A stretch of DNA of 26,190 bases from a virus, in IMG/VR virus record IMGVR_UViG_3300037153_000939, positions 1 through 26,190 of that record; one strand, 5' to 3'. The first letter of the stretch is position 1, and each line of letters begins with the position of its first letter. Made by a program: the position numbers and the translations under genes. The notes under the pieces were generated by a model. The model ran no database searches. It was not told the DNA's origin and was given only the letters and a program-made list of their open reading frames with translations. This document shows positions 4,600-26,190 of this stretch, piece after piece.

Positions 4600-4615
4600 A
4601 GGGAGCACCAGCACC

Positions 4616-5089: not shown

Positions 5090-5100
5090 GAGGAGCCCCC

Positions 5101-5607: not shown

Positions 5608-5768
5608 GCTGGGAGCAGCTCCAGGACATCCAGCGGGAGGCCGCCGAGATGCAGCAGGAGGACGCCACGGCGCCGCCGACTGCCTGCCCGCTCGACGGCA
5701 CCCCGCTGGACCTCGGCCTGAACGGCGTCCTGGGCTGCCCCTGGTGCGGCTGGAGGAGCCCAGAATGA
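5604..5768 (+). CDS. 54-residue zinc-ribbon-like protein
   Basis: A short gene starting at GTG 5604, which overlaps the previous stop (GTGA), and ending at 5768 in an ATGA overlap with the next gene. It reads MSWEQLQDIQREAAEMQQED, then TACPLDGTPLDL and GVLGCPWCGWR. An N-terminal amphipathic helix is followed by CP-x-DGTPL...CPWCGW, resembling small proteins of the form ACPxDGTPL...GVLxCPxxGWRP found after head genes in many actinophages. Three cysteines plus an Asp or another ligand may hold zinc. Both overlaps and the near-total use of G/C at codon third positions argue that it is real. Role unknown, perhaps head assembly. Confidence 0.75.
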   Translation: MSWEQLQDIQREAAEMQQEDATAPPTACPLDGTPLDLGLNGVLGCPWCGWRSPE

Positions 5769-6181
5769 CCGTGCTGAACGCCGAGGACGTCTACGCCGCC
5801 GGAGGGCCCACGGCCCTGCGCCTCGCCTGCCGCGGGGCCATCCGGCTGCTGACCCAGCAGGGCCGCGCCGCCGAGATCCTCATGGAGGTGGCGGTCCCCA
5901 TCGTCGACCTGGCGAACCGCCTCCGGGCCATCGGCCAGAAGGCCGAGGCGAACGGCATCTTGGAGCACGCCGTCCACGACGGCATCCAGGCGTCGGTCCT
6001 GGCTGAGGCCATCGAGCACTCCACGACCACCACCATCCGGGCCGACGCGACGCCCGCTCAGCTGAGCGTCGGCCCCCACGGCGGCCTGATGGCCGGTCCG
6101 CCGCCGGCCGCCACCGACCTGGGCTCGACCATGGCCCTGGCCAACTACGTCCGTGACCGCCTCCTGAGCTTCGAGGGCTGA
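5765..6181 (+). CDS. Hypothetical protein in head module
   Basis: 138 residues from the ATG at 5765, which overlaps the preceding stop. The first 75 residues form likely helices (GPTALRLACRGAIRLLTQQGRAAEILMEVAVPIVDLANRLRAIG), followed by a Thr/Ala/Gly/Pro-rich stretch and a final helix (LANYVRDRLLSFEG). I do not recognise the family. It is preserved inside a tightly packed virion operon, so a structural or assembly role is likely. Confidence 0.6.
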   Translation: MTVLNAEDVYAAGGPTALRLACRGAIRLLTQQGRAAEILMEVAVPIVDLANRLRAIGQKAEANGILEHAVHDGIQASVLAEAIEHSTTTTIRADATPAQLSVGPHGGLMAGPPPAATDLGSTMALANYVRDRLLSFEG

Positions 6182-6183
6182 CC

Positions 6184-6501
6184 ATGCCGACCTACCGCGA
6201 GCGCTCGGCCGACGCCGAGGACCCCGTCCTGATCGCCCGCGTGCGCAACGGGCTCGTCAAGTTCGTCATCTACAAGTTCGGCACGAGCGCCACCGACGCC
6301 GAGAAGCGCCTGGGCCTCCAGATCCTGGCCAACCCCGAAGCGTTCGCCCGGACCTTCGCCATCGGCGTCACCGCGAACGACTTCTGGCGCTCCGGCAACG
6401 CCGCCAACGACCCCGAGCCGGACAACGCCACGGGGGACACGAAGCTCCAGTCCATCATCGAGGCCACGCTGTGGCCCATCTACATCACTGAGGCACCCTG
6501 A
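6184..6501 (+). CDS. Hypothetical protein in head module
   Basis: 105 residues. It starts 2 bases after the previous stop and ends in a one-base overlap with the next ATG (TGATG). The sequence contains VLIARVRNGLVKFVIYKFGTSATDAEKRLGLQILANPEAFARTFAIGVTAND, probably a mixed helix/strand fold, and DTKLQSIIEATLWPIYI at the end. No family recognised and no catalytic motif seen. Confidence 0.6.
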   Translation: MPTYRERSADAEDPVLIARVRNGLVKFVIYKFGTSATDAEKRLGLQILANPEAFARTFAIGVTANDFWRSGNAANDPEPDNATGDTKLQSIIEATLWPIYITEAP

Positions 6502-6902
6502 TGGCCGTCGGCATCTCAGCAGCTATCGCGAACGACATCCTCGACGCCCTGGCGAAGAACGATGCGTTCACCACGCTCCCGGTCAGCGCCGTGTGGATCA
6601 AGCTGCACGTGGCCGACCCGGGCTCGGCCGGCACGAGCAACGCCGCCGGCAACACGACCCGGAAGCAGGCCACCTTCGGCTCAGCTGCTTCGGGCGGCTC
6701 GATCTCGAACACGGCGGACATCGCCTGGAGCACAGGCGAGGTGACCACCTCCGAGGACTACTCGCACTACTCGGCGTGGACCGCCTCGACCGCCGGCACG
6801 TTCCTGTTCTCGGGCGTCATCACCGCGAACGCCGTCACCTCGGGCGACCAGTTCACCATCCCGACGGGCTCCCTCACCCTGTCGCTGACCGTCGCGTCCT
6901 GA
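6501..6902 (+). CDS. Phage tail-fibre-type beta protein (LHVADPGSAGTSN family)
   Basis: 133 residues with the recognisable pattern WIKLHVADPGSAGTSNAAGN, then TRKQATFGSAASGG, SNTADIAWS, YSHYSAWTASTAGTFLFSG and TIPTGSLTLSL. This family is common in siphoviruses, where it is usually annotated as a minor tail or fibre protein, and it forms a beta-rich domain. Here it lies directly before the large adhesin in the head region, so it may anchor that adhesin to the virion. It contains TCA GCT GCT at 6681, three A/T-ending codons in a row, within the repeated TCAGCTG word. Confidence 0.65.
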   Translation: MAVGISAAIANDILDALAKNDAFTTLPVSAVWIKLHVADPGSAGTSNAAGNTTRKQATFGSAASGGSISNTADIAWSTGEVTTSEDYSHYSAWTASTAGTFLFSGVITANAVTSGDQFTIPTGSLTLSLTVAS

Positions 6903-6913
6903 GCGGCTGACCG

Positions 6914-9886: not shown

Positions 9887-9899
9887 GAAGCTGGGGACC

Positions 9900-10955
9900 G
9901 TGAGCATCAGTCGACCCACCTACGTGACCCGCGAGGATGTGGCGCTGGCGCTCGACCTGAACGAGTCGGCGGCCGCCTATGACCGGGTGGACCGGGCCAT
10001 CGAGTCGGCCACCGAGGACGTGCGCGGCACGCTCCGGCGCGAGTTCTCGCCCTACCTGGCCACGAAGCGCTTCGGCTGGCCCGACGCCGCCTACCGCACG
10101 CCGTGGCGCCTCTGGCTCGACGACGCCGAGGTGATCGAGGTCACAGCCTTCACCGCGGGGAACGTGACCCTCGACACGGCCGACCTCTTCCTGGAGCCCG
10201 CCAACAGCGGCCCGCCCTACTGGTCGATCGAGACGAGCCTGGCCACCTCGGCCAGCTTCCAGGCCGGGGACACGCGCCAGCGCGCCCTCGCGGTCACGGG
10301 CCTCTTCGGCTTCCGCGACGACGAGGAGCCCGTGGGCGAGCTGGCCGGCACCCTGGCCGCCGACATCAACGCCACCGCCTCGGTCACCTGGAGCACGCCG
10401 AAGGTGGGCGTCGGCTCCCTCCTGCGCATCGGCTCGGAGCGGGTCCTGGTCACGGACCGCTCGATGGTGAGCACGGGCCAGACCCTTCAGAGCCCGCTCG
10501 CGGCCTCGACGTCGGCCACCGCGGTCAGCGTGGTGGACGGCGCGGCGTTCGGCGCCGGCCAGGTCATCCTCCTGGACGGCGAGCGGATGCGGGTCACCGC
10601 GGTGGCCGGCAATACGCTCGTGGTGAAGCGCTCGGTGGACGGCTCGGCCATTGCCAGCCACACGGGGTCGACCATCTACAGCCTGACGGGCGTCACGCTC
10701 AGCCGAGCGGCGCAGGGCTCGACCCTGGCCGCGCACTCCTCGGGCACGACCATCTACCGCCACCTGGTGCCGTCGCTCGTGCGCGACCTCGCCCTGGCCT
10801 ACGCCCTGAACCAGTTCCTCCAGGAGGGCGCCGGCTACGCCCGCATGGTCGGCGCCGGGGAGAACGCCACCGAGGCCAGCGGCCGGGGCCTCCGGGCGCT
10901 CGAAGCGGACGCCCTCCTCCGGTACGGCCGCCAGCTGCTCTACGGGGCCGTGTGA
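9900..10955 (+). CDS. Head-tail connector (adaptor) with an inserted beta-rich region
   Basis: 351 residues from GTG 9900, preceded by GAAGCTGGGGACC. The first 95 residues (VTREDVALALDLNESAAAYDRVDRAIESATEDVRGTLRREF) and the last 70 (LVRDLALAYALNQFLQEGAGYARM, with LLRYGRQLLYG at the end) are helical and match head-completion adaptor proteins that bind the portal ring. Between them lie two similar beta units, VGVGSLLRIGSERVLVTD (about 173-190) and FGAGQVILLDGERMRVTAVAGNT (about 217-239), each followed by Thr/Ser-rich strands. This makes the protein about twice the length of compact adaptors. The stop overlaps the next start (TGATG). Confidence 0.8.
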   Translation: MSISRPTYVTREDVALALDLNESAAAYDRVDRAIESATEDVRGTLRREFSPYLATKRFGWPDAAYRTPWRLWLDDAEVIEVTAFTAGNVTLDTADLFLEPANSGPPYWSIETSLATSASFQAGDTRQRALAVTGLFGFRDDEEPVGELAGTLAADINATASVTWSTPKVGVGSLLRIGSERVLVTDRSMVSTGQTLQSPLAASTSATAVSVVDGAAFGAGQVILLDGERMRVTAVAGNTLVVKRSVDGSAIASHTGSTIYSLTGVTLSRAAQGSTLAAHSSGTTIYRHLVPSLVRDLALAYALNQFLQEGAGYARMVGAGENATEASGRGLRALEADALLRYGRQLLYGAV

Positions 10956-11338
10956 TGGCGACCAACGTCGTGGCCGACTACGAGGTCCAGGTGAAGGGGC
11001 CCATCTTCACGGGCGCCATCCGCGGTCAGATGAAGCGGGCCATCCGCGACATCGAGGACGACATCGGGGACGCCCTCGTCGAGGAGATCCGCTCCATCGA
11101 CGACAGCACCTTCAGGGAGCCGACGGGTCACGCCACGAGCATGGTCACGAAGGAGCGCAAGGGCTCGACCATGACCGTCGACCGCCAGGGCCTGGTCTAC
11201 GGGCCGTGGCTGGAGGACGGGGGCAGCCGGTCCGAGCTGTTCCCCGGCTACCACGCGTTCCGCGATGCGACCCGAGAGGTCGACGACAAGGTCCCTGACA
11301 TCGTGGACAACGCCATCGCGAGGTACCTGATCCAATGA
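10955..11338 (+). CDS. HK97 gp10-like neck / head-tail joining protein
   Basis: 127 residues from the ATG at 10955, which overlaps the connector stop. The open frame extends far upstream inside the connector gene, but only this start fits the operon and the family length. The C-terminal part (LVYGPWLEDGGSRSELFPGYHAFRDATREVDDKV) is typical of gp10-like proteins that join the neck to the tail tube. Order adaptor, gp10-like, terminator, tube is the canonical siphovirus layout. The stop overlaps the next ATG (ATGA). Confidence 0.8.
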   Translation: MATNVVADYEVQVKGPIFTGAIRGQMKRAIRDIEDDIGDALVEEIRSIDDSTFREPTGHATSMVTKERKGSTMTVDRQGLVYGPWLEDGGSRSELFPGYHAFRDATREVDDKVPDIVDNAIARYLIQ

Positions 11339-11826
11339 TCGAGCTGGAGCTGGAGCAACTGGCGACGAACCTCGTCGATGGCCTGGCCTCGTTCACCCTG
11401 TCGACCGGGCGGTTCGACAAGGTGAACCAGCACGAGCCGAAGTCGGCGCCGGGCTCGGGCCTGACGGCGGCCATCTGGGCCGACTACATCGGGCCGAGCC
11501 CCCAGGGCGCCGGCCTCGACGTGACCGACGGGCTGCTGGTGCTGAAGGAGCGGCTCTACATGCCGCTGGGCTCGGAGCCCGAAGACGGCATCGACCCGGC
11601 CATGATGAGCGCGTGCATGGTCCTGATGGCCGCCTACTCGGCCCGCTTCAGCCTGGGCATCGTCGACACGGACGGCGACGCCGCGGCCTGGATCGACCTT
11701 CGGGGCATCTCGCGCAACCGCCTGGAGGCCGCCGCCGGCTACCTGAAGTACGACGAGCGCCAGTACCGGGTGATGACCATGACGGTCCCCGTGATCGTTG
11801 ACGACCTCTGGCCACAAGGGCAATAG
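11335..11826 (+). CDS. Tail terminator protein
   Basis: 163 residues, starting in a 4-base overlap with the gp10-like gene. An N-terminal helix (MIELELEQLATNLVDGLASF) precedes strands and the segment DGIDPAMMSACMVLMAAYSARFSLGIVDTDGDAAAWIDLRGI. Size, helix-strand pattern and position directly before the tail tube gene fit the terminator that caps tail polymerisation and docks the tail on the head. Assignment rests mainly on gene order. Confidence 0.7.
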   Translation: MIELELEQLATNLVDGLASFTLSTGRFDKVNQHEPKSAPGSGLTAAIWADYIGPSPQGAGLDVTDGLLVLKERLYMPLGSEPEDGIDPAMMSACMVLMAAYSARFSLGIVDTDGDAAAWIDLRGISRNRLEAAAGYLKYDERQYRVMTMTVPVIVDDLWPQGQ

Positions 11827-11835
11827 GAGACCAGC

Positions 11836-12588
11836 ATGGCCAAGCAATCCGGCCTAGGTGACCAGCTGTTCATCGACGGCTACAACGTCTCGGGTGATGT
11901 CGGCTCGATCGACACGATCAGCACGCCGATGGAGCCCTTCGAGGTGACCGGCATCAACAAGGGGGCGAAGGAGCGCATCGGCGGCAAGCGCGACGCCCAG
12001 ATGTCGTTCATGTCGTTCTTCAACCCCGCGGCGAACCAGAGCTTCCAGCGGCTGAAGCTGCTCCCGACGACCGACGTCATCGCCACCTACTTCCACGGCT
12101 CGACCATCGGGAACGTGGCCTTCGGGATGCAGGGCAAGCAGGTGAACTACGACGGCTCCCGGGGCGACGACGGTTCGCTGACCTTCAAGACGGACGTCAC
12201 GGGCACGCCCAACGGCGGCAACTGGGGCGAGATGCTGACGCCCGGCATCGCCACGATCGGCGCCGCCGGGGCCCAGTCCAGCCTCGACTACGGGGTCTCG
12301 GTAGGCACGACGAACTTCGGCCTCCAGGCGTTCCTCCAGGTCTTCGCCCTGACCGGCACGTCAGCAACCGTCGCCATCCAGTCGAGCACGGACAACGGGG
12401 CGGGCGACGCCTTCAGCAACGTCACGGGCGCCGTGTTCACCGCGGCCACGGGCGTCACGAGCGAGCGCATCATCACGGGCTCGACCCAGGCGGTCGAGCG
12501 GTACCTACGGGTCAACGTGACCGGCACCTTCACGCTGCTCTGGTTCAGCGTGATGGTCTGCCGCAACACGGTGGCCACGAGCTTCTGA
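11836..12588 (+). CDS. Major tail tube protein with C-terminal beta domain
   Basis: 250 residues, after a clear AGGAG ribosome site. Residues 1-135 (MAKQSGLGDQLFIDGYNVSGDVGSID, then EVTGINKGAKERIGGKRDAQMSFMSFFNPA and YDGSRGDDGSLTFKTDV) are the tail tube fold that stacks as hexameric rings around the tape measure protein. Residues from about 150 on (YGVSVGTTNFGLQAFLQVFAL ... ITGSTQAVERYLRVNVTGTFTLLWFSV) form a separate beta-sandwich that probably projects from the tube surface. A shorter paralogue is encoded at 13058. Confidence 0.85.
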   Translation: MAKQSGLGDQLFIDGYNVSGDVGSIDTISTPMEPFEVTGINKGAKERIGGKRDAQMSFMSFFNPAANQSFQRLKLLPTTDVIATYFHGSTIGNVAFGMQGKQVNYDGSRGDDGSLTFKTDVTGTPNGGNWGEMLTPGIATIGAAGAQSSLDYGVSVGTTNFGLQAFLQVFALTGTSATVAIQSSTDNGAGDAFSNVTGAVFTAATGVTSERIITGSTQAVERYLRVNVTGTFTLLWFSVMVCRNTVATSF

Positions 12589-12598
12589 GGAGAGCACC

Positions 12599-13048
12599 AT
12601 GGGCTTCGGCGAACCCTTCCGGGTCACCCCCACCGGCAAGGTGACCGACATGGAGACGTGGGGCCTGCGCCCCTACCTTCGGCCGGCCACGTGCGCCGAG
12701 GTCGGGTGCCGCCCCCACGAGAACGGCTGGCGCACGACGGTGGCCGCCGACGACGCCGCCTTCCTCCGGCTGGCCTGCGCCGGCCAGGTCGACGGGCTCG
12801 TCCGCCACGCCATCGAGATCCCCCAGGCGGACGGCTTCATCCAGTTCGTCTTCGAGGCCGGCCAGCCCTGCCTGAAGGCCCGCTCCCACCAGGTCCACCA
12901 GGAGCGTGACCCGATCGCCCTCCGGCGCGGCGGGGACTGGCGGGCGGCCACGACGCCGAACCGCACGTACGACCGCCTCGACCAGTGGACCGACGACCTG
13001 CACACCAGCACGACGAAGCTCACCGAGCTTCGTGAACGACACGGATAG
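12599..13048 (+). CDS. Conserved tail-module protein of unknown function (GGDWR motif)
   Basis: 149 residues, ATG with a GAGGAG ribosome site. It has two cysteine/histidine pieces, ATCAEVGCRPHENGW (about 31-45) and AGQPCLKARSHQVHQERDPIALRRGGDWR (about 88-116), then TPNRTYDRLDQWTDDLHTS. Small proteins with a C-x4-C-x2-H segment and a RRGGDWR motif are frequent in phages of Streptomyces and relatives, where the function is not established. Here the gene is wedged between two tail-tube-like genes. A structural zinc site is plausible but inferred. Confidence 0.7.
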   Translation: MGFGEPFRVTPTGKVTDMETWGLRPYLRPATCAEVGCRPHENGWRTTVAADDAAFLRLACAGQVDGLVRHAIEIPQADGFIQFVFEAGQPCLKARSHQVHQERDPIALRRGGDWRAATTPNRTYDRLDQWTDDLHTSTTKLTELRERHG

Positions 13049-13057
13049 GAGCGCCTC

Positions 13058-13450
13058 ATGGCGAAGGAATCCGGCCTCGGGTGGACGACCCTGACCGTGG
13101 CCAGCAACGACCTGCGCAACGACGTCCGATCCCTGGACATCGCCACCCCGCGCGAGGTCCAGGACGTAACCGGCATCGACAAGAGCGCCTACGAGCGCCT
13201 GTTCCTCCTGGCCGACGGCTCGGTGGACATGAACGGCGTCTTCAACGACGCCGCCTCGAAGTCGCACGTCACGCTGAAGGGCGTCGCCACGGCCTCGGCC
13301 TCGGTGGCGGTGGCCATCGGCGTGTCGGGCCAGACCCTGAGCATGAACATGCTCCAGACGGACTACGCGCTCAGCCGAGGCGACGACGGCGCGCTGACCT
13401 GGAAGGCGCCGTTCACCCTCGCGGACGGCACGGCGCCGGCCTGGTCGTGA
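13058..13450 (+). CDS. Second, shorter tail-tube-like protein
   Basis: 130 residues, ribosome site AGGAG. The N-terminus MAKESGLGWTTLTVASNDLRNDVRSLDIATPREVQDVTGIDKSAYERL aligns with the start of the tail tube protein at 11836 (MAKQSGLG...VTGINKGAKERI), and YALSRGDDGALTWKAPFTLADG matches its YDGSRGDDGSLTFKTDV. It lacks the C-terminal beta domain. It is probably a paralogue forming alternative tube rings or a tail-tip ring; alternatively it could be the main tube subunit while the longer copy decorates. Confidence 0.8.
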   Translation: MAKESGLGWTTLTVASNDLRNDVRSLDIATPREVQDVTGIDKSAYERLFLLADGSVDMNGVFNDAASKSHVTLKGVATASASVAVAIGVSGQTLSMNMLQTDYALSRGDDGALTWKAPFTLADGTAPAWS

Positions 13451-13488
13451 CCCAGACCCCCCACCAGAGGAACCGACAGGAGAAGCGC

Positions 13489-13983
13489 ATGGCGCACCGA
13501 CGCAAGGTCAAGCAGCTCCGGCTGCACTTCGAGGATGGCCCGCTGGGCCCCGACCCGGCGGTGCCGGGCGACGAGGGCCTGACGGTCCTCATGCGCTCGG
13601 TGCCCATCGGGACCATCTTCGAGCTGGGCGAGTTCGCCACCATCGAGAACCAGTTCTCGGCCGAGGGCATGGCCGCGATGACCAAGGTCTTCGAGGTGCT
13701 CTCGGCTGCCGTCATCGAGTGGAACCTGACCGAGGGGCGGTGCCCGCTGCACGACTCGGCCGAGTGCGAGGAGTGCCCCGAGACCTCGTTCATCGACCAC
13801 CCGGTCCCCGCGACGCTCGAAGGGGTGAAGACCCTCGACCTCGACGAAGCCCAGCTGCTGATCCAGCGCTGGACCGAGGCCGCGGCGGGCGTCAGCGCCC
13901 CTTTGGCACAGCCCTCCGGCGGTGGAAGGCCGTCGGGAGCGCTGGATCTTCTGCCCATGGAGGTGGCAAGCCCGGCATCTTGA
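13489..13983 (+). CDS. Tail assembly chaperone, upstream product (G-like)
   Basis: 164 residues from the ATG at 13489, preceded by GACAGGAGAAGCGC. It lies directly before the tape measure gene, the standard position of the chaperones that coat the tape measure protein during tail assembly. It has LTVLMRSVPIGTIFELGEFATIE and MTKVFEVLSAAVIEWNLTEG, typical of actinophage G proteins. CPLHDSAECEEC adds three cysteines and a histidine near the middle. The zero-frame tail after residue 139 (AQPSGGGRPSG...) is low-complexity. A slippery heptamer at 13899-13905 allows extension into the next frame. Confidence 0.85.
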   Translation: MAHRRKVKQLRLHFEDGPLGPDPAVPGDEGLTVLMRSVPIGTIFELGEFATIENQFSAEGMAAMTKVFEVLSAAVIEWNLTEGRCPLHDSAECEECPETSFIDHPVPATLEGVKTLDLDEAQLLIQRWTEAAAGVSAPLAQPSGGGRPSGALDLLPMEVASPAS

Positions 13984-14129
13984 CGAAGGCCGAGCTGGTG
14001 CTGGGAATCCTCGAACGGTTCTCGGGCTACACCTACACGACCTTGATGGAAGAGGACCCCGAGCTGCTCCGGCTCGTACAGATCGAGCAGCTTGGATCGA
14101 GGGAACGGCGCGATGGCCAACATCATTGA
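13489..14129 (+). CDS. Tail assembly chaperone, -1 frameshift product (GT-like)
   Basis: Made from the same start as the upstream chaperone by a -1 slip at CCCTTTG. Zero-frame codons CCT TTG re-pair as CCC TTT. Translation then continues in the -1 frame (GTALRRWKAVGSAG, then GILTKAELVLGILERFSGYTYTTLMEEDPELLRLVQIEQ) to the stop at 14129, giving about 213 residues. The -1 frame region has no independent start with a good ribosome site, and its coding-like helical sequence ends 17 bases inside the tape measure gene. Shifted chaperones are nearly universal in siphoviruses; the heptamer is seen directly, the efficiency is unknown. Confidence 0.75.
13899..13905 (+). promoter_or_regulatory. Slippery heptamer for -1 ribosomal frameshift
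   Basis: CCCTTTG in the zero frame reads C CCT TTG, which matches the X XXY YYZ rule (X=C, Y=T, Z=G). It sits about 80 bases before the zero-frame stop and connects exactly the two chaperone frames. The CCT and TTG codons used here are otherwise rare in this genome, supporting selection for the slip site. Confidence 0.75.
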
Positions 14130-16617
14130 CATCACGATTCGGGCCCTCGACCAGACGGGCTCAGGCGTCGCCAGCGCCGGCAAGGCCGGCAACTTCCTCG
14201 CGGGCATCTTCCAGGGCATCGGCCAGAAGGCCGCCGGCATGGTGGCCGAGCTACCGAGCAAGGCCATCAGCTTCTTCAGCGACGCCATCGGCGCCGCCTC
14301 GGACCTGGGCGAGACCGTCTCGAAGAACCAGACCATCTTCGGGGCGGCCTCGAAGGAGCTGCTGGACTGGGCCGAGAACGCGCCCCGGTCGCTGGGCCTG
14401 ACCAAGCAAGCCGCGCTCGACGCCACGGGCACCCTCGGGAACCTCTTCACTCAGCTGGGCATCACCACGGACGAGGCCCGGAAGATGAGCCAGGCCAACG
14501 TCCAGCTGGCGACCGACTTCGCCTCGTTCCACAACGCCGACCCGACCGAAGTCCTCGAAGCGATGACCGCGGCCTACCGGGGCGAGTACGACGCCGTCCA
14601 GCGGTACGTCCCCGTCATCAACGCGGCGAAGGTCGAAGAGGAGGCCCTGGCCCAGACGCACAAGAAATCCGCGAAGGAGCTGACCGAGAAGGACAAGGCC
14701 CTGGCGGTCTCGTCCCTCATGCAGAAGAACGCGGGCGCCGCCGCCGGGGACTTCGCCCGCACGAGCGACAGCGCCGCCAACAAGACGCGCATCGCTGCGG
14801 CCGCCTTCGAGGACCTGAAGGTCAAGATCGGCAACGCCCTGCTGCCGACCTGGTCCGCCCTGCTGAGCTTCGTCACGGGCTCGTTCCTGCCCATGCTCAG
14901 CAACGTGGCGGACGCCGTCATCGGCAAGGTGGGGCCCGCCTTCCAGATCGCCTCGGACGCCCTGAAGCTGTTCGTGGGCGCCTTCACGGGCGAAGGCGCT
15001 GACATCCAGTCCGACCTCGGGGGCTGGATGAACACGATCATCGACTGGGGCGCGACCGCCCGGGGCGTGTTCGACAGCGTGATGAACTTCTTCGGTCAGC
15101 TGAAGGCGGGCTGGGACGCGCTGGTCTCGGCCTTCCAGACCGGCATGACCGAGAACGAGTCAGGCTGGGGCACCTTCAGCCAGATCATGGAGCAGGTGGG
15201 CCTGATCGCCCGCACCGTGTTCGAGTGGCTTCAGTCGAACGTGCCCAACATCCTGGCGACCCTCCAGGGGGCCCTCGCGCCGCTCGTGGGCAAGCTCCAG
15301 GAGTTCTGGGACATGATCGGCGGGAACCAGGCCCTGCTCGTCACCATCGGCGTCCTGATCGGCTCCGTGGTCCTCTCGGCGGTCCTCGCCCTGACCGGCG
15401 CCCTCTGGTCCATGGCCGCCGCCGTGCTGGCCGCTACGTGGCCGCTGGTGGCCATCGTGGCCGTGATCTTCGCTGTGGTCGCGGCGCTCATGTACGCCTA
15501 TAACAACTGGGAGTGGTTCCGCAACGGCATCGCCACCGTGGTGGGCTGGCTTCAGACCAACGTGCCGCCGGCCTTCGAGATGGTGAAGGCGGCCGTGATG
15601 GTGGCCTTCGACTGGATCGCCAACGTGGCCGTGCCGGCGGTCATGAACGCCTTCAACGCCTTCATGGGCTTCCTCCAGGGGACCCTCCTGCCGGCGGTCA
15701 CCACTGTGTGGAACGGCATCTGGTCAAGCGCCGAGCAGCTGGCCGCCATCCTGATCGACGTCTTCACTCGCATCAGCAACTTCATCAGCGATAACTGGAA
15801 CTGGATCAGTGGCCTTGCTCGTGCCGTCTGGGACCTGATTACGAACATAATCAGCAACGCCTGGCAGATCATTAGCAACATAATCCAGCTGTTCCTGAAC
15901 ATCATTACCGGCAACTGGTCCGGCGCCTGGCAGAACATCCAGAACATCCTCTCGGCCGCCTGGAACATGATCGTGGGCGTCATCAGCGGCGCCGCCTCGA
16001 TCATCGGCAACCTGTTCATGATCATCGTCTCGGCCGCCGGCAACCTGGCCGCCGCCGTGGCCGGCAAGGTGGGGGAGCTGATCGGCTGGTTCCAGCGGCT
16101 CCCCGGCCAGATCATGGGGGCCATCGCTGGGCTGGCGGGCGACATGCTGGCGGCCGGCGGGCGCATCATCCAGAGCCTGATCGACGGTATCCGCTCGAAG
16201 ATCGGCGGGGCGGTCGACGCCGTGAAGGGCGGCCTCCAGTCCATCCGCAACCTGCTCCCCTTCAGCCCCGCGAAGGAGGGCCCCTTCAGCGGGCGTGGCT
16301 GGACGCTCTACTCGGGCCAGTCGATGGTCGAGGCCATCGGGGAGGGCTTCACCTCGCGCCGGGGCTCGATGCTGGCGGCCGTGCGCTCGACCATGGAGGC
16401 CACCCAGCGGGCCATCAGCGCTGGCACGAACCTGGGCGGCTACATGCCGGGCCAGCCGGCCATCGCGGCCGCCCTGGCCGGCGCCGGGGGCGGCACGACC
16501 GTGAACCAGTACATCCAGGGCTCTATCCGCTCGGACCGCGACCTGGTTCGGCTGATCCGAGACGACCTGGACAACCTCGGGCTCGGCCCGCAACGCACGG
16601 GCGCGGGGAGGATCTGA
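14113..16617 (+). CDS. Tape measure protein
   Basis: 834 residues. The ATG at 14113 is chosen over an upstream TTG because GAGGGAA lies 7 bases before it. The protein fixes tail length and is ejected with the DNA. Residues 1-250 are alanine-rich helices (DITIRALDQTGSGVASAGKAGNF, VSKNQTIFGAASKELLDWAENAPRSLGL, DAVQRYVPVINAAKVEEEAL). About 408-465 is strongly hydrophobic (several possible membrane spans), followed by Trp-containing repeats (NNWEWFRNGI, NWNWISGLARAVWDLI, TGNWSGAWQNI). The end carries RNLLPFSPAKEGPFSGRGWTLYSGQSMVEAIGEGF, typical of tape measure proteins. By the usual rule of about 1.5 angstrom per residue, the tail would be near 125 nm. Codons at 15790-15915 are unusually A/T-ending. 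Confidence 0.95.
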   Translation: MANIIDITIRALDQTGSGVASAGKAGNFLAGIFQGIGQKAAGMVAELPSKAISFFSDAIGAASDLGETVSKNQTIFGAASKELLDWAENAPRSLGLTKQAALDATGTLGNLFTQLGITTDEARKMSQANVQLATDFASFHNADPTEVLEAMTAAYRGEYDAVQRYVPVINAAKVEEEALAQTHKKSAKELTEKDKALAVSSLMQKNAGAAAGDFARTSDSAANKTRIAAAAFEDLKVKIGNALLPTWSALLSFVTGSFLPMLSNVADAVIGKVGPAFQIASDALKLFVGAFTGEGADIQSDLGGWMNTIIDWGATARGVFDSVMNFFGQLKAGWDALVSAFQTGMTENESGWGTFSQIMEQVGLIARTVFEWLQSNVPNILATLQGALAPLVGKLQEFWDMIGGNQALLVTIGVLIGSVVLSAVLALTGALWSMAAAVLAATWPLVAIVAVIFAVVAALMYAYNNWEWFRNGIATVVGWLQTNVPPAFEMVKAAVMVAFDWIANVAVPAVMNAFNAFMGFLQGTLLPAVTTVWNGIWSSAEQLAAILIDVFTRISNFISDNWNWISGLARAVWDLITNIISNAWQIISNIIQLFLNIITGNWSGAWQNIQNILSAAWNMIVGVISGAASIIGNLFMIIVSAAGNLAAAVAGKVGELIGWFQRLPGQIMGAIAGLAGDMLAAGGRIIQSLIDGIRSKIGGAVDAVKGGLQSIRNLLPFSPAKEGPFSGRGWTLYSGQSMVEAIGEGFTSRRGSMLAAVRSTMEATQRAISAGTNLGGYMPGQPAIAAALAGAGGGTTVNQYIQGSIRSDRDLVRLIRDDLDNLGLGPQRTGAGRI

Positions 16618-17438
16618 TGGCGCTGTGGATACCCAACCAGGGCGAAGAGATCCTCCTGGACATCATCCTGGCGACGGGCATGACCCTGAAGCTCTACAAG
16701 AACGACGTGACCGCGGGGCTCACCACCAGCCAGAAGGAAGCGCTCACCGAGGCCAGCTTCACGGAGGCCAACTTCACGGGCTACTCGGCCAAGACGCTGA
16801 CCGGCGGGTCATGGGTGACCACCCAGGCCGAGCCGAGCACGGGCGTCTACGCCCAGCAGACCTTCACCAGCTCGGCCAACCAGACCGCCCAGAGCATCTA
16901 CGGCTACTACGTCACCCGGACCTCGGACGGGAAGCTGCTCTGGTTCGAGCGCTTCGCGGGCCCGGTCTCGATCAGCCTCATCAACGACGCCATCAGCGTG
17001 ACGCCGACCATCACCCTCGACGACGACCAGGAGGCCACCGTGGCAGCCCAGGGCGTGAAGGCGCTGTTCTCCTCGACCTCCCCGAGCACGACCTACACGA
17101 CGACCACGACCACGGACATGGTGCTGAACAGCTTCGTGGCCGACGGCACGCGCAACTACCGCATCGTCATCAGCGCCGCCTGCTACACCACGGGCGCCGG
17201 TACGTGGTTCTCGAAGCTCTCGATCGGGGGCACCGACACCTCACGGCTGGGAGCGCTCACGGGCGTCTCGGGCACGACCGACGGGTATCACTCGGCGTCC
17301 TACCTCTGGCAGCCAGCCAGCGGCACCTACAATCTGGCCGTGGTGGCCACCGAGCTGAGCGGCACGGCCTCGTTCACCTACTACGCCGATTCGGTGGACC
17401 CTCGCCAGTTCTGGATTGAGGACGTCGGGCCCCGCTGA
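16617..17438 (+). CDS. Minor tail protein with two beta domains
   Basis: 273 residues; the ATG overlaps the tape measure stop (TGATG). The N-terminal half (GMTLKLYKNDVTAGLTTSQKEALTEASFTEANFTGYSAKTL, then GYYVTRTSDGKLLWFERFAG) resembles a domain common in phage minor tail and fibre proteins. The C-terminal half (SSTSPSTTYTTTTTTDMVLNSFVADGTRNYRIVISAACY ... ATELSGTASFTYYADSVDPRQFWIEDVGPR) is a separate beta-sandwich that probably trimerises or binds a surface ligand. Position behind the tape measure suggests a tail-tip component. Confidence 0.7.
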   Translation: MALWIPNQGEEILLDIILATGMTLKLYKNDVTAGLTTSQKEALTEASFTEANFTGYSAKTLTGGSWVTTQAEPSTGVYAQQTFTSSANQTAQSIYGYYVTRTSDGKLLWFERFAGPVSISLINDAISVTPTITLDDDQEATVAAQGVKALFSSTSPSTTYTTTTTTDMVLNSFVADGTRNYRIVISAACYTTGAGTWFSKLSIGGTDTSRLGALTGVSGTTDGYHSASYLWQPASGTYNLAVVATELSGTASFTYYADSVDPRQFWIEDVGPR

Positions 17439-21024: not shown

Positions 21025-21058
21025 AGCGGCGCCCGGCCTCAGCTGACCGGGCGCCGCT
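21025..21058. terminator. GC-rich hairpin between converging operons (bidirectional terminator candidate)
   Basis: AGCGGCGCCCGG (21025-21036) pairs perfectly with CCGGGCGCCGCT (21047-21058), a 12-bp stem around a 10-nt loop. It sits in the 46-bp gap between two converging stop codons, exactly where a two-way terminator is expected. There is no T-run, as is common in high-GC phages. The loop contains TCAGCTGA (21039-21046). Confidence 0.7.
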
Positions 21059-21065
21059 CGGGGGC

Positions 21066-22802
21066 TCAGAAGTCGACGTCGTCCAGGCTGTTCGAGACCG
21101 CCACCTGGGCGGCCAGGTTGGCCGGGGCCTCGGTCGCGGCGGGCTCGTAGGGCCGGCCCGCGTACTCGTCGGCCACGGCCTTGTACTGCTCGACCAGCTC
21201 GCCCACCCATTCGTCGAAGTCGGCGCCGGCACCGAGGAACGAGGCCGTGACGTTGGCCAGCGTGGCGCCCTCCAGGGCGATGTCGGCCTTCACCAGCTCC
21301 TCGACGAGCATGGGCCAGGTCTCCTCGACGCCGAGCGCCTCGACCGCATCGTTCAGGGTCTGCCACTGGACACGGCGCAGCTCGCGCCGGGCCTCGTCCG
21401 GGTCGGGCGCCGGGGGCTCCTCCTGGACCGGCTGTGCGGGCCGCTCCGGGGCCGCGGGGGGCGCGGACGGGGCCTTCGGCGCCCGGGGGCTCGGGCGGCC
21501 GCTGGAGGCCGTCCTGCGCACGTTGGCGATGGCGGTCATGACGGGCTGGAAGGAGTCGGCGGCCAGCTGGTCGCCCAGGCGGTGGCCGGCGCCCTGCGCC
21601 CACTGCTCGACCTCGGCCCGCTTCGCTTCGGTCAGCTCGCCCAGCTGCTTGGCCACGGTCTCGCGCTGGACCTTGGACGCCAGCTTCGCCCCACCGGCCT
21701 GGCGCCGGGCCGCGCCGGCATCGGCGGGCGGCGCCGGGGGAGCGGCGGCGGCCAGCTGCTCGGCGGCCTCACGCTGATGGACCAGCGCGCCGGCCCGGCC
21801 GATCAGCCACTGGAGGGTCCCGACCGTGAACTGGCCCGACTTGATCGAGAAGCCCCGCTCCTCGCGCTCGGCCTTGATGCGCGCCCGCTCGGCGTCGGTC
21901 AGGTCGGCCATGACCGTGTTCAGGTGCTCGATGTCGGCCTGGGTCACGTGCTCGTCGGCGGACCGCTCGGGGCGCCGTGCCGGATTCTCGACCGGCGCCG
22001 AGGGGCTATCCACAACCTGTGGATTAGGCGCCGGCTCGGGGTCATCGGCAGGCGGGGCGGACGCCTCGGGCTTGCCGGCGGCAGCGGCCTTCGCCCGGCT
22101 GGCCACGTACGGCTTCAGCTGGGCGTAGTCGCCCCGGGTCAGCTGAGCCTTCGTCACGACCATGCCCCGCTCGGCTGCCCAGTCCTTTACGCGCTCGCGC
22201 TCGGCCTCGGGCAGGGCCTTGATGGCGTCGGCCACCTCGGCGTACTGGGCCTCGCTCACGCGCTGGACGTGCGGCCGCTCGTCCACGCGGTCAGGCCGCT
22301 CGGAGTCCGGGTCCTCGGTGGCCAGCTGGAGCAGGTCGACCAGCATGTTCTTCCGGGCGCTCGTGTCGGCCTTGTTCGTGGCCTTGTCCGAGCCGAAGTC
22401 GACCGCCTGGCCCGTGGCCTCGGTCGTCAGGCTGTCGCCCAGCGGGCCCACGATCTCGTAGCGCACGGTCATGACGCACTCCTGCGCCTTGCCGTTGGCC
22501 TTCAGCTCGTGCTTGAGAACCTCGACCTTGCGCCAGTGGATGCCCAGCGCGACGAGGGGGCCGTGGCCCTCGTTCAGGATGTCCTCGATCTTGCGGAAGG
22601 CGTAGGTGGGGCCCTTGCGCTCTCCGTCCTTCACCTGGGGGACCATCTGGCCGGACTTGCCGATGGGGCCGATCTCGCGCTTCAGCAGGGGCAGCAGCAG
22701 GTGAAGGGGCAGCAGGTACCGGGGGCGGTCGTCGGGCGGCACCTCGGCGGCATCGAGGAGCGCCTTCAGCTCGTCGGGCTCGTAGACCTTGCGGTCGATC
22801 AT
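21066..22802 (-). CDS. ERF-family single-strand annealing protein with tandem C-terminal modules
   Basis: 578 residues. The start at 22802 is chosen because AGGAGG lies 7 bases upstream and MIDRKVYEPDELKALL begins the family-like sequence. Residues 25-165 are an ERF annealase domain (PTYAFRKIEDILNEGHGPLVALGI; TEATGQAVDFGSDKATNKADTSARKNMLVDLLQL), which anneals complementary strands in phage recombination. After this, modules of about 55 residues recur near 181-235, 286-343 and 377-430, with a more diverged one at 470-540. They share a hydrophobic helix, an ERxRVKxWAxERG-like core and a QLxxxxYxxL-like end, separated by Pro/Ala-rich linkers. The protein ends NSLDDVDF, an acidic tip with final Phe like that of single-strand binding proteins. 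It is much longer than typical ERF proteins. Confidence 0.85.
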   Translation of the reverse strand: MIDRKVYEPDELKALLDAAEVPPDDRPRYLLPLHLLLPLLKREIGPIGKSGQMVPQVKDGERKGPTYAFRKIEDILNEGHGPLVALGIHWRKVEVLKHELKANGKAQECVMTVRYEIVGPLGDSLTTEATGQAVDFGSDKATNKADTSARKNMLVDLLQLATEDPDSERPDRVDERPHVQRVSEAQYAEVADAIKALPEAERERVKDWAAERGMVVTKAQLTRGDYAQLKPYVASRAKAAAAGKPEASAPPADDPEPAPNPQVVDSPSAPVENPARRPERSADEHVTQADIEHLNTVMADLTDAERARIKAEREERGFSIKSGQFTVGTLQWLIGRAGALVHQREAAEQLAAAAPPAPPADAGAARRQAGGAKLASKVQRETVAKQLGELTEAKRAEVEQWAQGAGHRLGDQLAADSFQPVMTAIANVRRTASSGRPSPRAPKAPSAPPAAPERPAQPVQEEPPAPDPDEARRELRRVQWQTLNDAVEALGVEETWPMLVEELVKADIALEGATLANVTASFLGAGADFDEWVGELVEQYKAVADEYAGRPYEPAATEAPANLAAQVAVSNSLDDVDF

Positions 22803-22947: not shown

Positions 22948-22976
22948 AGCGTAGCAGACCGGTTGCGCCTGCGCAA
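22948..22976 (-). promoter_or_regulatory. Candidate promoter P1 for the ERF gene
   Basis: On the minus strand TTGCGC (22976-22971) is followed after exactly 17 bp by TACGCT (22953-22948), which fits the actinobacterial TANNNT -10 box. The predicted transcript start near 22941 leaves about 140 bases before the ERF start codon. The -35 box is one arm of the GTTGCGC/GCGCAAC dyad. Confidence 0.6.
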
Positions 22977-22977
22977 C
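22962..22977. promoter_or_regulatory. 16-bp dyad (operator candidate), copy 1
   Basis: GTTGCGCCTGCGCAAC: perfect 7-bp arms around a 2-base centre, placed immediately after the stop codon of the preceding leftward gene and overlapping the -35 box of P1. The same sequence with one base changed recurs at 25379-25394 in the other promoter region. No third full copy is seen in the window. Confidence 0.65.
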
Positions 22978-23819: not shown

Positions 23820-24394
23820 CAGGCCGCCCCCAGGCTCTCGTCTTCCCCGAGGTCCATCGCCTCGGCCAGGCCCGAGGTCAGGCGCTGCTCGGCGTCCTCG
23901 CCCTTCATGACCGACTGCATCAGGTTCACGATGCGGTCGAACAGGGCGATGGCCTTCGCCGCTCCCCGGAAGAGGCCCTCGGCCAGGTCGCGGTCGTGGC
24001 GGGCGTCGGCGCACAGCCAGTTCAGGACCACCTCGTAGCTCTTGGCCAGCGACAGGTCGCCCACCTCGATGCCGGCCGGCGGCGGGCCGGCGGTCCAGGT
24101 CTTCCAGACCTCCTCGTCGGGCCCGGGGGTGACGGGCTGGCCCTTCGAGCGCATCGAGGCGAGGAGCACGTGGACGGCGCCCTGGCGGTAGCGGTAGGCC
24201 CGCTCGGCGGCGGCCAGAGTCTCGGCCCGGCGCCGGTACACCTGGAGCGCCACCCGGCCGTCTCCGGCGGCCTTCACCGCGAGGGCTTCCAGCTCCCGGC
24301 GCTCGGGCGTCTTCGGGGAGCGGGCGAGGCCCTCCAGCTGGGACAGGCGGCGCTGGATGCCGCGGAGGGCGTTCTGATCGGTCACGGTCGTCAT
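23819..24394 (-). CDS. Hypothetical helical protein
   Basis: 191 residues; the ATG overlaps the HicA-like stop (ATGA). It is largely helical and charged: LRGIQRRLSQLEGLARSPKTPERRELEALAVKAAGDGRVALQVYRRRAETLAAAERAYRYRQ, then LAKSYEVVLNWLCADARHDRDLAEGLFRGAAKAIALFDRIVNLMQSVM. The first part could form a coiled coil. No motif allows a family call. It belongs to the leftward, presumably early, operon. Confidence 0.6.
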   Translation of the reverse strand: MTTVTDQNALRGIQRRLSQLEGLARSPKTPERRELEALAVKAAGDGRVALQVYRRRAETLAAAERAYRYRQGAVHVLLASMRSKGQPVTPGPDEEVWKTWTAGPPPAGIEVGDLSLAKSYEVVLNWLCADARHDRDLAEGLFRGAAKAIALFDRIVNLMQSVMKGEDAEQRLTSGLAEAMDLGEDESLGAA

Positions 24395-24597
24395 CGGGCG
24401 TTCGCCTCCGCTCGGGCCAGGGTGGTCTTCAGGTTCTTCATGGCCCGGTGGTCCCCGGGCGTCGAGCCGGCCACGACCGGCCGGCGCCCTTCCTTGAGGA
24501 ACACCAGGTGTCCCTTCCTCGTGTACTTCAGCTCCCAGCCCAGCTCGTCGGCCAGGGTCAGAAGCTCACGGACGTGTCGGGTGATTCGTTGGCCCAT
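24391..24597 (-). CDS. HicA-like small protein (orphan toxin fold)
   Basis: 68 residues from the ATG at 24597, with AGGAG 8 bases before it; it overlaps the end of the HNH gene by 40 bases. The pattern HVRELLTLADELGWELKYTRKGHLVFLKEGRRPVVAGSTPGDHRAMKNLKTTLARA matches the HicA fold: a helix, strands with the conserved G-H pair (G29, H30) that carries the catalytic histidine of HicA mRNA interferases, and a STPGDHRAxKN segment as in actinophage members. No HicB antitoxin gene is adjacent. It may be an RNase toxin, or an RNA-binding protein reused for phage functions. Confidence 0.75.
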   Translation of the reverse strand: MGQRITRHVRELLTLADELGWELKYTRKGHLVFLKEGRRPVVAGSTPGDHRAMKNLKTTLARAEANAR

Positions 24598-24893
24598 CGG
24601 TACGGCTCCTCGGTCTCGATCGGTGCGCCCAGCAGGCCACGGGCTCGGGCCCACGCGGGGTTCGCGTGGATGTGCTCGTGGCAGCTGAAACAGAGGTCCA
24701 GCGTGTTGTCCGGGCCGTCGCCCCCTCCCTGGGAGCGGCGGCGGATGTGGTGGCGGTGCTCGGCGCGCCCCGAGCAGATGCGCCCGATGGCCGCCTGGCA
24801 TCGGGTCGCAAGCGGGCGGTCAGGGTCGGCCCGGAGAACCCTCGGCCGGCGGCGCCGGGGGCCCTCCTTCCAGCGGGGCTCGACCTCGGGCAT
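24558..24893 (-). CDS. HNH endonuclease
   Basis: 111 residues; the ATG at 24893 overlaps the stop of the upstream gene (ATGA). The HNH core is visible: C32 and C40, AEHRHHIRRRSQGG (H48/H49), N63 in DGPDNTLDLC, then C68-x2-C71-H72 and H76, giving a zinc-stabilised beta-beta-alpha metal nuclease. The cysteine spacing in the first pair (C-x7-C) is wider than the usual C-x2-C, so zinc binding there is uncertain. Free-standing HNH proteins in phages may act in packaging, homing or host DNA cleavage. Confidence 0.85.
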   Translation of the reverse strand: MPEVEPRWKEGPRRRRPRVLRADPDRPLATRCQAAIGRICSGRAEHRHHIRRRSQGGGDGPDNTLDLCFSCHEHIHANPAWARARGLLGAPIETEEPYRWANESPDTSVSF

Positions 24894-25336
24894 CAGCTGT
24901 TCCCGCCGCGCTGGCCCTGGAGGATGGTCGGGCTCATCATCTCGTCCACAGCGGTGGCGGCCGCCCTGGCGATGGCCACGTCCAGGATCAGCTGAACGAG
25001 GTCGAGCGGGCTCATCTCCGGCGGGTACTCGATGCCGTGGCGCTCGCCCAGCAAGGTCAGCTCGTAGTCGAAGGCGCCCCACAGCTCCAGGGCCTCGGTG
25101 GCCTGGGCGAGGAGCGGGCCGACCCGGTCCAGCTCGTCCATGGCCAGCTTCGTGGCCTGGCGGACCATCTGGTCAGCGATGCGCCGGGCGTCGGTCTCGA
25201 ACAGCACGCGGACGGGTCCGCCGACGGGGCGGGCGGCCACGGTCCGGCTGGCCTGCTCGAAGGGGTCGGGCACGAGCGGAGCCGGCAAGGCCGCCGGCTG
25301 GGGGTCGGCGGGGACGTCGTCGCGGATGTCGGGCAT
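24893..25336 (-). CDS. Hypothetical protein, first gene of leftward operon
   Basis: 147 residues. The ATG at 25336 is chosen because GGAGG lies 5 bases upstream and promoter P2 about 30 bases upstream; the frame extends further but would cross the promoter. A Pro/Asp-rich N-terminus (DIRDDVPADPQPAALPAPLVPDPFEQ) precedes helices: TDARRIADQMVRQATKLAMDELDRVGPLLAQATEALELW, then PPEMSPLDLVQLILDVAIARAAATAVDEMM. Not recognised. Its first-gene position under the dyad promoter suggests early expression. Confidence 0.65.
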   Translation of the reverse strand: MPDIRDDVPADPQPAALPAPLVPDPFEQASRTVAARPVGGPVRVLFETDARRIADQMVRQATKLAMDELDRVGPLLAQATEALELWGAFDYELTLLGERHGIEYPPEMSPLDLVQLILDVAIARAAATAVDEMMSPTILQGQRGGNS

Positions 25337-25364: not shown

Positions 25365-25393
25365 ATCCTACCCGCGCCGTTGCCCCTGCGCAA
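25365..25393 (-). promoter_or_regulatory. Candidate promoter P2 for the leftward operon
   Basis: On the minus strand TTGCGC (25393-25388), 17 bp, then TAGGAT (25370-25365). The predicted start near 25358 gives a 20-odd base leader containing the GGAGG ribosome site of the 25336 gene. Its -35 box is the right arm of the dyad at 25379-25394, back to back with P3. Confidence 0.6.
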
Positions 25394-25394
25394 C
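25379..25394. promoter_or_regulatory. 16-bp dyad (operator candidate), copy 2, shared by divergent promoters
   Basis: GTTGCCCCTGCGCAAC differs by one base from the dyad at 22962-22977. Its left arm is the -35 box of the rightward promoter P3 and its right arm is the -35 box of the leftward promoter P2. Two RNA polymerases could not use both at once, and a protein bound here would block both. Confidence 0.65.
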
Positions 25395-25408
25395 GCATCC
25401 GATATGCT
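25380..25408 (+). promoter_or_regulatory. Candidate promoter P3, likely giving a leaderless mRNA
   Basis: TTGCCC (25380-25385), 17 bp, TATGCT (25403-25408). Only 8 bases separate the -10 box from the ATG at 25417, so transcription should start at or within two bases of the start codon. No ribosome site exists between them, which agrees with leaderless translation, common in actinobacteria. Confidence 0.65.
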
Positions 25409-25416
25409 CTCGTCCC

Positions 25417-25941
25417 ATGGCGAAGACCGACGCGCCCGAAGGCGCCCCCACCGATACCGACGAGCTGGTCCGCCAGCTCCGTGACCTCTACGACCGTCGG
25501 GCCGCCGTGCTCGACGCCATCCACCGCGGCCCGCTCGCGGCCGAGCGTGACGCCATCCTCCTGGAGCTGTGCGGCTTCCGGGGGATGCAGTACACCGAGG
25601 CCGCCGAGCTGGTCGGCTTCACCCGCGAGGGCATCGCCCGCCGGGTGCGGCCCCAGCTGGAGGCCCTGAAGCTGGAGGGCCTGACGCCCTTCGAGCGCTC
25701 GGTGGCCAAGGTCCGCCGGCCGCTGCGCAAGAAGGACACGGCCGACCTCGTGACCCAGCTTCGCACGGCCGACGAGGGCCTGGCCCGGCGCACCATGGGC
25801 GACGAGGCCCGGGACCTGCTCGACGAGATGCGCGCCGTCCTCGATCAGCTGAAGGCGAAGGGCATGAGCTGGAAGGCCGTCGCGGACGAGCTGGGCGTCC
25901 ACGCCTCGACCATCCACCGCCTGCGCGGCATCCTGTCGTGA
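25417..25941 (+). CDS. Protein with two helix-turn-helix motifs, probable transcription regulator
   Basis: 174 residues from the ATG at 25417. The frame is open far upstream, but promoter P3 lies immediately before this ATG. Residues 14-50 are a charged helix (DELVRQLRDLYDRRAAVLDAI). The first HTH is YTEAAELVGFTREGIARRVRPQ (about 59-80) and the second is SWKAVADELGVHASTIHRLRG (about 151-171). Between them lies a helical segment (GDEARDLLDEMRAVLDQLKAKG). The HTHs resemble sigma-region-4 or small phage regulator types. As the first gene next to the dyad, it is the best candidate to bind that dyad and control all three promoters including its own; this is inference. Confidence 0.7.
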   Translation: MAKTDAPEGAPTDTDELVRQLRDLYDRRAAVLDAIHRGPLAAERDAILLELCGFRGMQYTEAAELVGFTREGIARRVRPQLEALKLEGLTPFERSVAKVRRPLRKKDTADLVTQLRTADEGLARRTMGDEARDLLDEMRAVLDQLKAKGMSWKAVADELGVHASTIHRLRGILS

Positions 25942-26190
25942 AGAGGTTCGCCAGCTACCCCCATAACGGCGCCCTGATCCAGGCCGCGCACGACCTCGGC
26001 CACGTGCGCGGCCTGGTGCTGGACGCCACCTTCGGGAAGGGGACCTGGTGGCGCAGCGCCGAGGGCCTGACCCAGGTGACCGGCCGCATCGCCATGGACC
26101 TGCACCCGGTCAAGGCCCGCCGGGCCCTGGACCGCATCGAGCGCCAGCGCGTGGTCCATGGCGACTTCCGCCGGCCGCCCTTCCGGCCCG
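25938..26190 (+). CDS. SAM-dependent methyltransferase, probably DNA methylase (3' partial)
   Basis: GTG at 25938 overlaps the upstream stop (GTGA); 84 codons are visible before the window ends. The segment GLVLDATFGKGTWWRSAEG has the SAM-binding motif I pattern (hhDxxxGxG), followed by an acidic strand end, IAMDLHP, and VVHGDFRRPPF, where the motif before the catalytic D/N-PP-Y usually begins. The catalytic motif itself lies beyond the window, so base specificity and even DNA as the substrate cannot be settled. A SYPHN start also fits phage methylases. Confidence 0.7.
   Translation, partial: MKRFASYPHNGALIQAAHDLGHVRGLVLDATFGKGTWWRSAEGLTQVTGRIAMDLHPVKARRALDRIERQRVVHGDFRRPPFRP

Follow-up and report, generated by a model that had tools for sequence, protein, structure and literature searches.

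A short inverted repeat, GTTGC-N6-GCAAC, is probably the operator of an autoregulated phage early regulon, in which its arms double as -35 boxes and a dimer of a two-HTH protein would shut the promoters. Dyads of this form, coupled to -10 boxes at a fixed distance, are rare in the window, by which we mean the whole stretch of DNA analysed (virus record IMGVR_UViG_3300037153_000939, 26,190 bases, 71% G+C), and both their geometry and their position are conserved in a distant relative, G028. Head and structural genes occupy the + strand, and an early block lies at the right side of the record, where P0004, an HNH nuclease, a HicA-like protein, P0006, P0005 and an ERF-family annealing protein are encoded leftward, and the two-HTH protein and a methyltransferase-like gene truncated by the record end are encoded rightward. 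The host is probably an actinobacterium, as judged from the high G+C, the leaderless-type starts and the ERF and capsid relatives in actinobacterial phages, the capsid relative in Streptomyces phage Dagobah being 49.6% identical. The features of the early block are the following:

21066-22802, - strand: gene of an ERF-family single-strand annealing protein, predicted target of promoter P1 (phrog_155, E 3.5e-10; Pfam ERF score 18.9 bits, under the family cut-off of 25)
22948-22976, - strand: predicted promoter P1, TTGCGC-17 bp-TACGCT (TACGCT at 22953-22948), upstream of the ERF gene
22962-22977: dyad 2, GTTGCGC-CT-GCGCAAC (GTTGCGCCTGCGCAAC), with perfect 7-bp arms, at the predicted ERF promoter
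24391-24597, - strand: HicA-like small protein, a weak Pfam assignment (15.0 bits against a 27-bit cut-off)
24558-24893, - strand: HNH endonuclease of the P2 operon
24893-25336, - strand: P0004, 147 aa, first gene of the P2 operon
25365-25393, - strand: predicted promoter P2, TTGCGC-17 bp-TAGGAT (TAGGAT at 25370-25365), for the leftward operon from 25336
25379-25394: dyad 1, GTTGC-CCCTGC-GCAAC (GTTGCCCCTGCGCAAC), between P0004 and the HTH gene, which diverge from it
25380-25408, + strand: predicted promoter P3, TTGCCC-17 bp-TATGCT (TATGCT at 25403-25408), upstream of the two-HTH gene
25417-25941, + strand: two-HTH protein P0001, 174 aa, candidate dyad binder, gene 1 of the rightward operon
25938-26190, + strand: start (GTG) of the methyltransferase-like gene, which exits the record; the gene order is the same in G028

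A reading made earlier from the sequence alone had placed two copies of the dyad at 22962-22977 and 25379-25394, both upstream of a gene. A re-check of the sequence agrees on the positions and puts both copies between genes, with the proviso that intergenic status depends on the start codons chosen, since open frames run nearly everywhere in GC-rich DNA. It had also proposed that the arms double as -35 boxes of three promoters with 17-bp spacers and, in fact, the window contains no TTGNNN-(14 to 20)-TANNNT pairs other than P1, P2 and P3. The two arms of dyad 1 form the -35 boxes of both P2 and P3, and dyad 2 directly follows the P0005 stop codon (22978), ahead of the ERF start at 22802, which leaves a P1-to-ERF leader of about 140 nt. 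P2 is followed by a short leader with GGAGG ahead of the ATG at 25336, while the HTH start codon stands 8 nt past the P3 -10 box, so that a leaderless HTH mRNA is predicted. A -10 box is thus present for three of the four dyad arms of the window and absent for the rightward arm of 22962. According to a report on M. tuberculosis (PMC3898074), TANNNT is the -10 motif at 73% of primary starts, without any -35 motif being detected, and leaderless mRNAs occur extensively.

Both components of this arrangement are scarce. A scan of the window for TTGC...GCAA over arm spacings 0 to 13 returned spacing 6 at the two dyads only, plus one case at spacing 13, and GTTGC occurs just twice on the + strand. 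TANNNT is found ten times on both strands together, seven times inside late-gene ORFs (4195-17333); for all three intergenic occurrences, the distance to the TTGCNN of a dyad is exactly 17 bp. Among 500 dinucleotide shuffles of the window, two dyads were reached in one and three TTGNNN-17-TANNNT pairs in four, and a dyad with a 17-bp-spaced -10 box in none, nor in any of 500 shuffles of G028. Likewise, no dyad-to-TANNNT spacing other than 17 was seen in the window and G028 over the range 10 to 24, and many copies scattered inside genes, which the same reading had named as evidence against itself, were not seen in either record. The late genes (window 1-20735) showed no TTGNNN-(14 to 20)-TANNNT promoter, so that another promoter type or read-through is needed there.

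The relative G028 (IMGVR_UViG_3300043432_000200; 38,016 bases, 70% G+C) has a capsid protein 56% identical to that of the window and an ERF protein 69% identical over residues 7-247; of the 33 records searched, no other yielded the ERF protein. It contains exactly three TTGC-N6-GCAA dyads, which give four predicted promoters, every spacer being 17 bp:

G028 5683-5698: divergent dyad flanked by the HTH gene and a 147-aa P0004-like gene, with its two promoters back to back
HTH gene side of the 5683-5698 dyad: counterpart of P3, TTGCCA-17-TATAGT, with an ATG 7 nt past the -10 box
divergent 147-aa gene side of the 5683-5698 dyad: counterpart of P2, TTGCAG-17-TAGACT
G028 10829-10844: ERF dyad, upstream of a gene set including ERF, -10 box TAGACT
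G028 527: dyad upstream of a 95-aa gene, -10 box TAGGCT

In both phages the divergent dyad abuts the HTH gene, and its divergent neighbours, P0004 in the window and P0009 in G028, occupy the same place, are both 147 aa long and are 35% identical over 66 aa. On the other side, the methyltransferase-like product is 53% identical to its G028 counterpart over their common part (its Pfam match to Methyltransf_25 reaches only E 0.21), and the regulator-side operon of G028 also encodes a replication-initiator-like protein with an HTH_36 domain. Across the dyads of the two genomes the arms are constant and the 6-bp centre is variable (one arm of the G028 divergent dyad, at 5684, reads CTTGC instead of GTTGC), a -10 box lies at 17 bp for seven of the ten arms, and the second arm, GCAA(C), is retained at the one-way promoters at 22962, 10830 and 527. 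By sequence comparison, conservation of the arms, geometry and placement is confirmed in one distant relative only, and the exact dyads that support the regulon are five in number, from two records only. The joint control of HTH, nuclease/HicA-like and ERF genes proposed earlier is strengthened by this recurrence of geometry and positions, with the reservation that the HicA homology is weak.

When one arm mismatch is allowed, the window has three sites, one of them without a -10 box at 17 bp, and G028 has nine (the three exact dyads, 37839 and five others), five of them without a -10 box. The site at 37839 has a 17-bp spacer to TATTCT, followed by an apparently leaderless gene. At this place a long palindrome, AACATGGGGC...GCCCCATGTT (G028 37828-37863; L102:17828-17863), overlaps the TATTCT -10 box and the apparently leaderless gene and includes the one-mismatch version of the dyad. 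G028 also has a TTGNNN-17-TANNNT pair at 21107 without dyad-like sequence, and leaderless-type TANNNT starts without a dyad, from which it follows that the dyad is dispensable for transcription as such.

Conservation of the dyad in relatives, whose lack the sequence-only reading had named as evidence against itself, holds for the arms around a variable 6-bp centre and not for the exact 16-mer. The latter was tried as a conserved site and rejected: at 37 other viral-contig loci that contain it, none has TANNNT at 15-19 bp from either arm, and these occurrences were treated as chance. A search with the capsid protein yielded 60 relative loci in viral contigs, and among the 28 available as whole records the full dyad-promoter pattern was present in one, G028 (four matches), the reversed-pattern control giving 0. 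TTGC-N6-GCAA occurs in 7 of the 60 capsid-relative stretches, in no case 17 bp away from a -10 box, the dyads of G028 lying outside its own stretch in that set (L087). Searching these 60 stretches by tblastn with P0001-P0007 gave nothing at E <= 0.05; the HTH protein search covered the whole record for G028 and the fetched stretches for the remaining capsid relatives. No close relatives were found in viral contigs by P0001 or P0003 alone. Alignment searches returned G028 alone in viral contigs for the ERF protein, with none in GTDB genomes, and likewise G028 alone in viral contigs for the HTH protein. With the methyltransferase-like protein, G028 and four distant loci were obtained in viral contigs and none in genomes; the four distant loci showed no dyad promoter and no convincing HTH relative, the best P0001 match having E 0.036 over 25 residues (L137), and one of them, L139, has a dyad with no -10 box at 17 bp. 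Among isolated phages, ERF matches were found in 60 records, all below 60% identity and mostly from phages of Mycobacterium (32) and Streptomyces (22). The 23.8 kb examined of Tubberson (about 39 kb in all) contain one dyad and no dyad promoter, and neither the 24.3 kb examined of Raleigh (about 41 kb in all) nor the whole Dagobah record has a dyad promoter.

The divergent pattern, with GTTGC/GCAAC arms and both -10 boxes, was also searched for in viral contigs and gave 23 stretches, G028 being missed because of the CTTGC arm of its divergent dyad. None of the 23 had tblastn matches at E <= 0.1 to P0001, P0003, P0004, P0008, P0009 or P0011; many are AT-rich, and four (L104, L107, L123 and L126) share one site. 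The bare divergent pattern is therefore not restricted to this lineage. The only one near phage-like GC, L106 (72% GC; IMGVR_UViG_2593339203_000002), is prophage-like and has GTTGC-TACTGC-GCAAC at 11339-11354 with 17-bp-spaced -10 boxes on both sides, between two ORFs named by eye as a small excisionase-like HTH and an Xre-like one, with an ORF near that is tyrosine-integrase-like, again by eye. No HTH or ERF protein relative was detectable in L106, and its dyad reflects convergence on this form of operator, or else chance.

The two-HTH protein is, by adjacency and homology, which are evidence of association, the likeliest binder of the dyads, and another phage or host protein could also fill this role. 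Its G028 homologue, P0008 (173 aa), is 33-35% identical to P0001, and in the region of the first HTH recognition helix, picked by eye after the alignment had been viewed, 8 of 13 residues are identical (REGIARRVRPQLE against REAIAKRIRPLKE) compared with about 34% for the protein overall. Pfam and PHROGs searches with P0001 and P0008 produced generic HTH matches only. An AlphaFold2 model of P0001 built from a two-row alignment (pLDDT 80, pTM 0.59) has helices at 41-54/59-66/70-83 and 129-147/152-159/163-173, which may be read as two HTH-like units joined by helices. A fold search of the PDB with this model gave none at E <= 0.001; in VIA-align its best match was to a helical coiled-coil (Z 7.0), no better than helical models are expected to score by chance, and several HTH regulators scored Z 4-5.7; in BFVD the best matches had E 0.019 and 0.026, one of them to a Corynebacterium phage Dina protein. 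In isolated phages P0008 had no match at E <= 0.1 (six records up to E 10, best E 0.5); the matches of P0001 (19 records to E 1, best E 0.006) were nearly all to T4-type baseplate-hub genes and were set aside as chance.

From this arrangement we infer that P1 to P3 are active, that the two-HTH protein binds the dyads and that it does so as a repressor, autoregulated early control by repression being the most likely mode of action. Host RNA polymerase would begin early transcription at the dyad promoters; these would be of the sigma-70 type, a TTGCNN arm serving as the -35 hexamer at a constant 17 bp from a TANNNT -10 box. The rightward arm would direct the regulator and the methyltransferase-like gene and the leftward arm the nuclease/HicA-like genes, and ERF would stand under its own operator copy. 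As both -35 boxes are arms of one 16-bp sequence, P2 and P3 are expected to be mutually exclusive even without protein, two polymerases being unable to occupy one dyad. The two-HTH protein would be translated from the P3 transcript, predicted to be leaderless, and its dimer would then sit on the dyad so that the two TTGC arms, about one helical turn from each other, each receive one HTH. In the usual numbering the dyad extends from about -36 to -21, that is, over the -35 box and half of the spacer, and consequently a bound dimer should exclude RNA polymerase; one dimer at 25379 would shut both its own operon and the divergent one, and a second dimer would shut the ERF operon. The retention of the second arm at one-way promoters appears to be the best evidence for a dimeric site over a decorated -35 box, because the -35 box there does not require it, and this evidence is tempered by the position of the three one-way dyads, all 0-11 nt after a stop codon, where a hairpin is possibly favoured. 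The early-control part of the switch envisaged by the earlier reading is consistent with these data, whereas its lysis-lysogeny part is unsupported, as the Resolvase (PF00239) and Phage_integrase (PF00589) profiles matched nothing in the window or G028, both records being possibly incomplete.

Activation is the main rival to repression, although we regard it as unlikely. The two-HTH protein would in that case be an activator or sigma-like recruiter at the TTGC arms, turning the early/replication and recombination promoters on with positive self-feedback. The overlap of the dyad with the -35 box, with arms fixed relative to the -10 box, is compatible with this, as are weak Sigma70 region 4 matches in P0001 and P0008. 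In addition, sites of the CII activator of lambda and P22 are TTGC-N6-TTGC (PMC2629481), and thus have the same half-site, in direct orientation, with the same 6-bp spacing near a promoter; unlike these direct repeats, the arms here are inverted and the half-site is the -35 box itself, and the CII family is absent from the Pfam/PHROGs matches of P0001. However, a TTG -35 box that lies 17 bp from a TANNNT -10 box should already be usable by host polymerase, and early promoters normally fire before any phage protein is present. Furthermore, the sigma matches are under the cut-offs and fall on the second HTH in P0001 and on the first in P0008, as expected from generic HTH similarity. A bolder form, to which we give little credence, makes the two-HTH protein a phage-encoded -35 reader whose dimer would take over or replace the sigma region 4 contacts, giving a single-site bistable switch; if it were true, one dimer would select which of the divergent promoters is used by polymerase, that of the regulator/replication arm or that of the recombination arm.

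It is comparably improbable that a host regulator or another phage protein reads the dyads while the two-HTH protein works elsewhere. A 5-N6-5 geometry is common among dimeric HTH regulators and GTTGC-N6-GCAAC fits it, and the L106 dyad has its -10 boxes both ways with no relative of the tested proteins. Nevertheless, the single capsid-relative record with the full pattern, among 28 whole ones, is also the single one of 33 with the ERF gene, and in both phages it is the HTH gene that the divergent dyad adjoins.

A role of the dyads as transcription terminators or RNA hairpins, instead of or besides operators, is very improbable. A stop codon lies 0-11 nt before each of the three one-way dyads: the stop before 22962 ends at 22978, a 59-aa ORF ends at 10817 before the G028 dyad at 10830, and at G028 527 the upstream ORF ends at 541, inside the outer base of the dyad. 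The dyad at 10830 is moreover part of a 14-pair hairpin (z -4.8, none of 200 shuffles as stable). In contrast, the other four of the five dyads are no more stable as RNA than their shuffles (z +0.2 to -1.2), the two divergent dyads sit between gene starts with no gene end there, no T run follows any of the five, and seven of ten arms have a 17-bp-spaced -10 box. The hairpin with the G028 ERF-operon dyad, at G028 10820-10853 (L101:10820-10853), 11 nt past the 59-aa ORF stop, is possibly terminator and operator at once, a dual role which would not contradict the operator model. Finally, a chance origin as symmetric -35 boxes of a GC-rich genome with no regulator is scarcely credible and largely refuted: TTG is the expected -35 core, a single palindrome can arise randomly and the separate components did turn up in a few window shuffles, but the joint pattern did not in either genome, one-way promoters retain the second arm, and the placement matches in a diverged relative.

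Among known systems, divergent early promoters under one operator region are found in lambda OR/OL, where CI and Cro act. The sites described here resemble it in having back-to-back promoters with an operator over the -35 elements and an autoregulated HTH dimer expected, and differ in that both promoters take their -35 box as well as their operator from one 16-bp dyad; a second repressor was not identified, and neither record, both being possibly incomplete, yielded an integrase. An operator overlapping divergent early promoters is of a well-known kind, and the single-palindrome layout is unusually compact. The actinobacterial phage phiC31 has conserved inverted repeats bound by its repressor at several early promoters, a likeness by description only. 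In a study of Cluster A phages (PMC9283540), the L5 repressor has 183 aa and more than 20 operator/stoperator sites per genome, the L5-type repressor uses two DNA-binding units to bind asymmetric 13-mers as a monomer, and the lambda CI dimer binds symmetric operators. By that account (PMC9283540), the two-HTH protein is similar to the Cluster A repressors of L5 and TipsytheTRex, being small (174 aa) with two HTH-type units and having multiple sites in promoter/intergenic regions of a probably actinobacterial phage. Unlike the asymmetric L5-type sites, the 16-mers here are symmetric, two in 26 kb and three in 38 kb, all at predicted promoters, and comparison of P0001 with Pfam, PHROGs and PDB sequences returned nothing more specific than generic HTH and no match to the L5-type family. 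A text search of the literature for the inverted TTGC-N6-GCAA motif found no paper, which does not prove its absence in print.

The design is an economical one: two divergent early operons take their -35 boxes and their operator from a single palindrome. For an uncultured phage lineage, the sequence by itself yields an operator, a regulator and promoters that are open to experiment. Two diverged regulator homologues with common half-sites make specificity testable, and TTGC-N6-GCAA-N9-TANNNT can be used as an early-promoter search pattern in related records. Some further observations concern the surrounding genes. At 21025-21058 of the window an inverted repeat with perfect 12-bp arms around a 10-nt loop lies between convergent ORF ends (the + strand ORF ends at 21019 and the ERF gene at 21066) and is a possible bidirectional terminator. 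The methyltransferase-like protein of G028 (gene at L101:4080-4946), for which no Pfam or PHROGs family was found at E <= 0.01, has DADYKLNG where the distant relative in L137 has DPPYKLNG, and its catalytic motif may be altered relative to the latter. The early region of G028 also encodes, at L101:8733-9446, a shikimate-kinase-like protein (Pfam SKI, E 8.9e-34), an unusual cargo.
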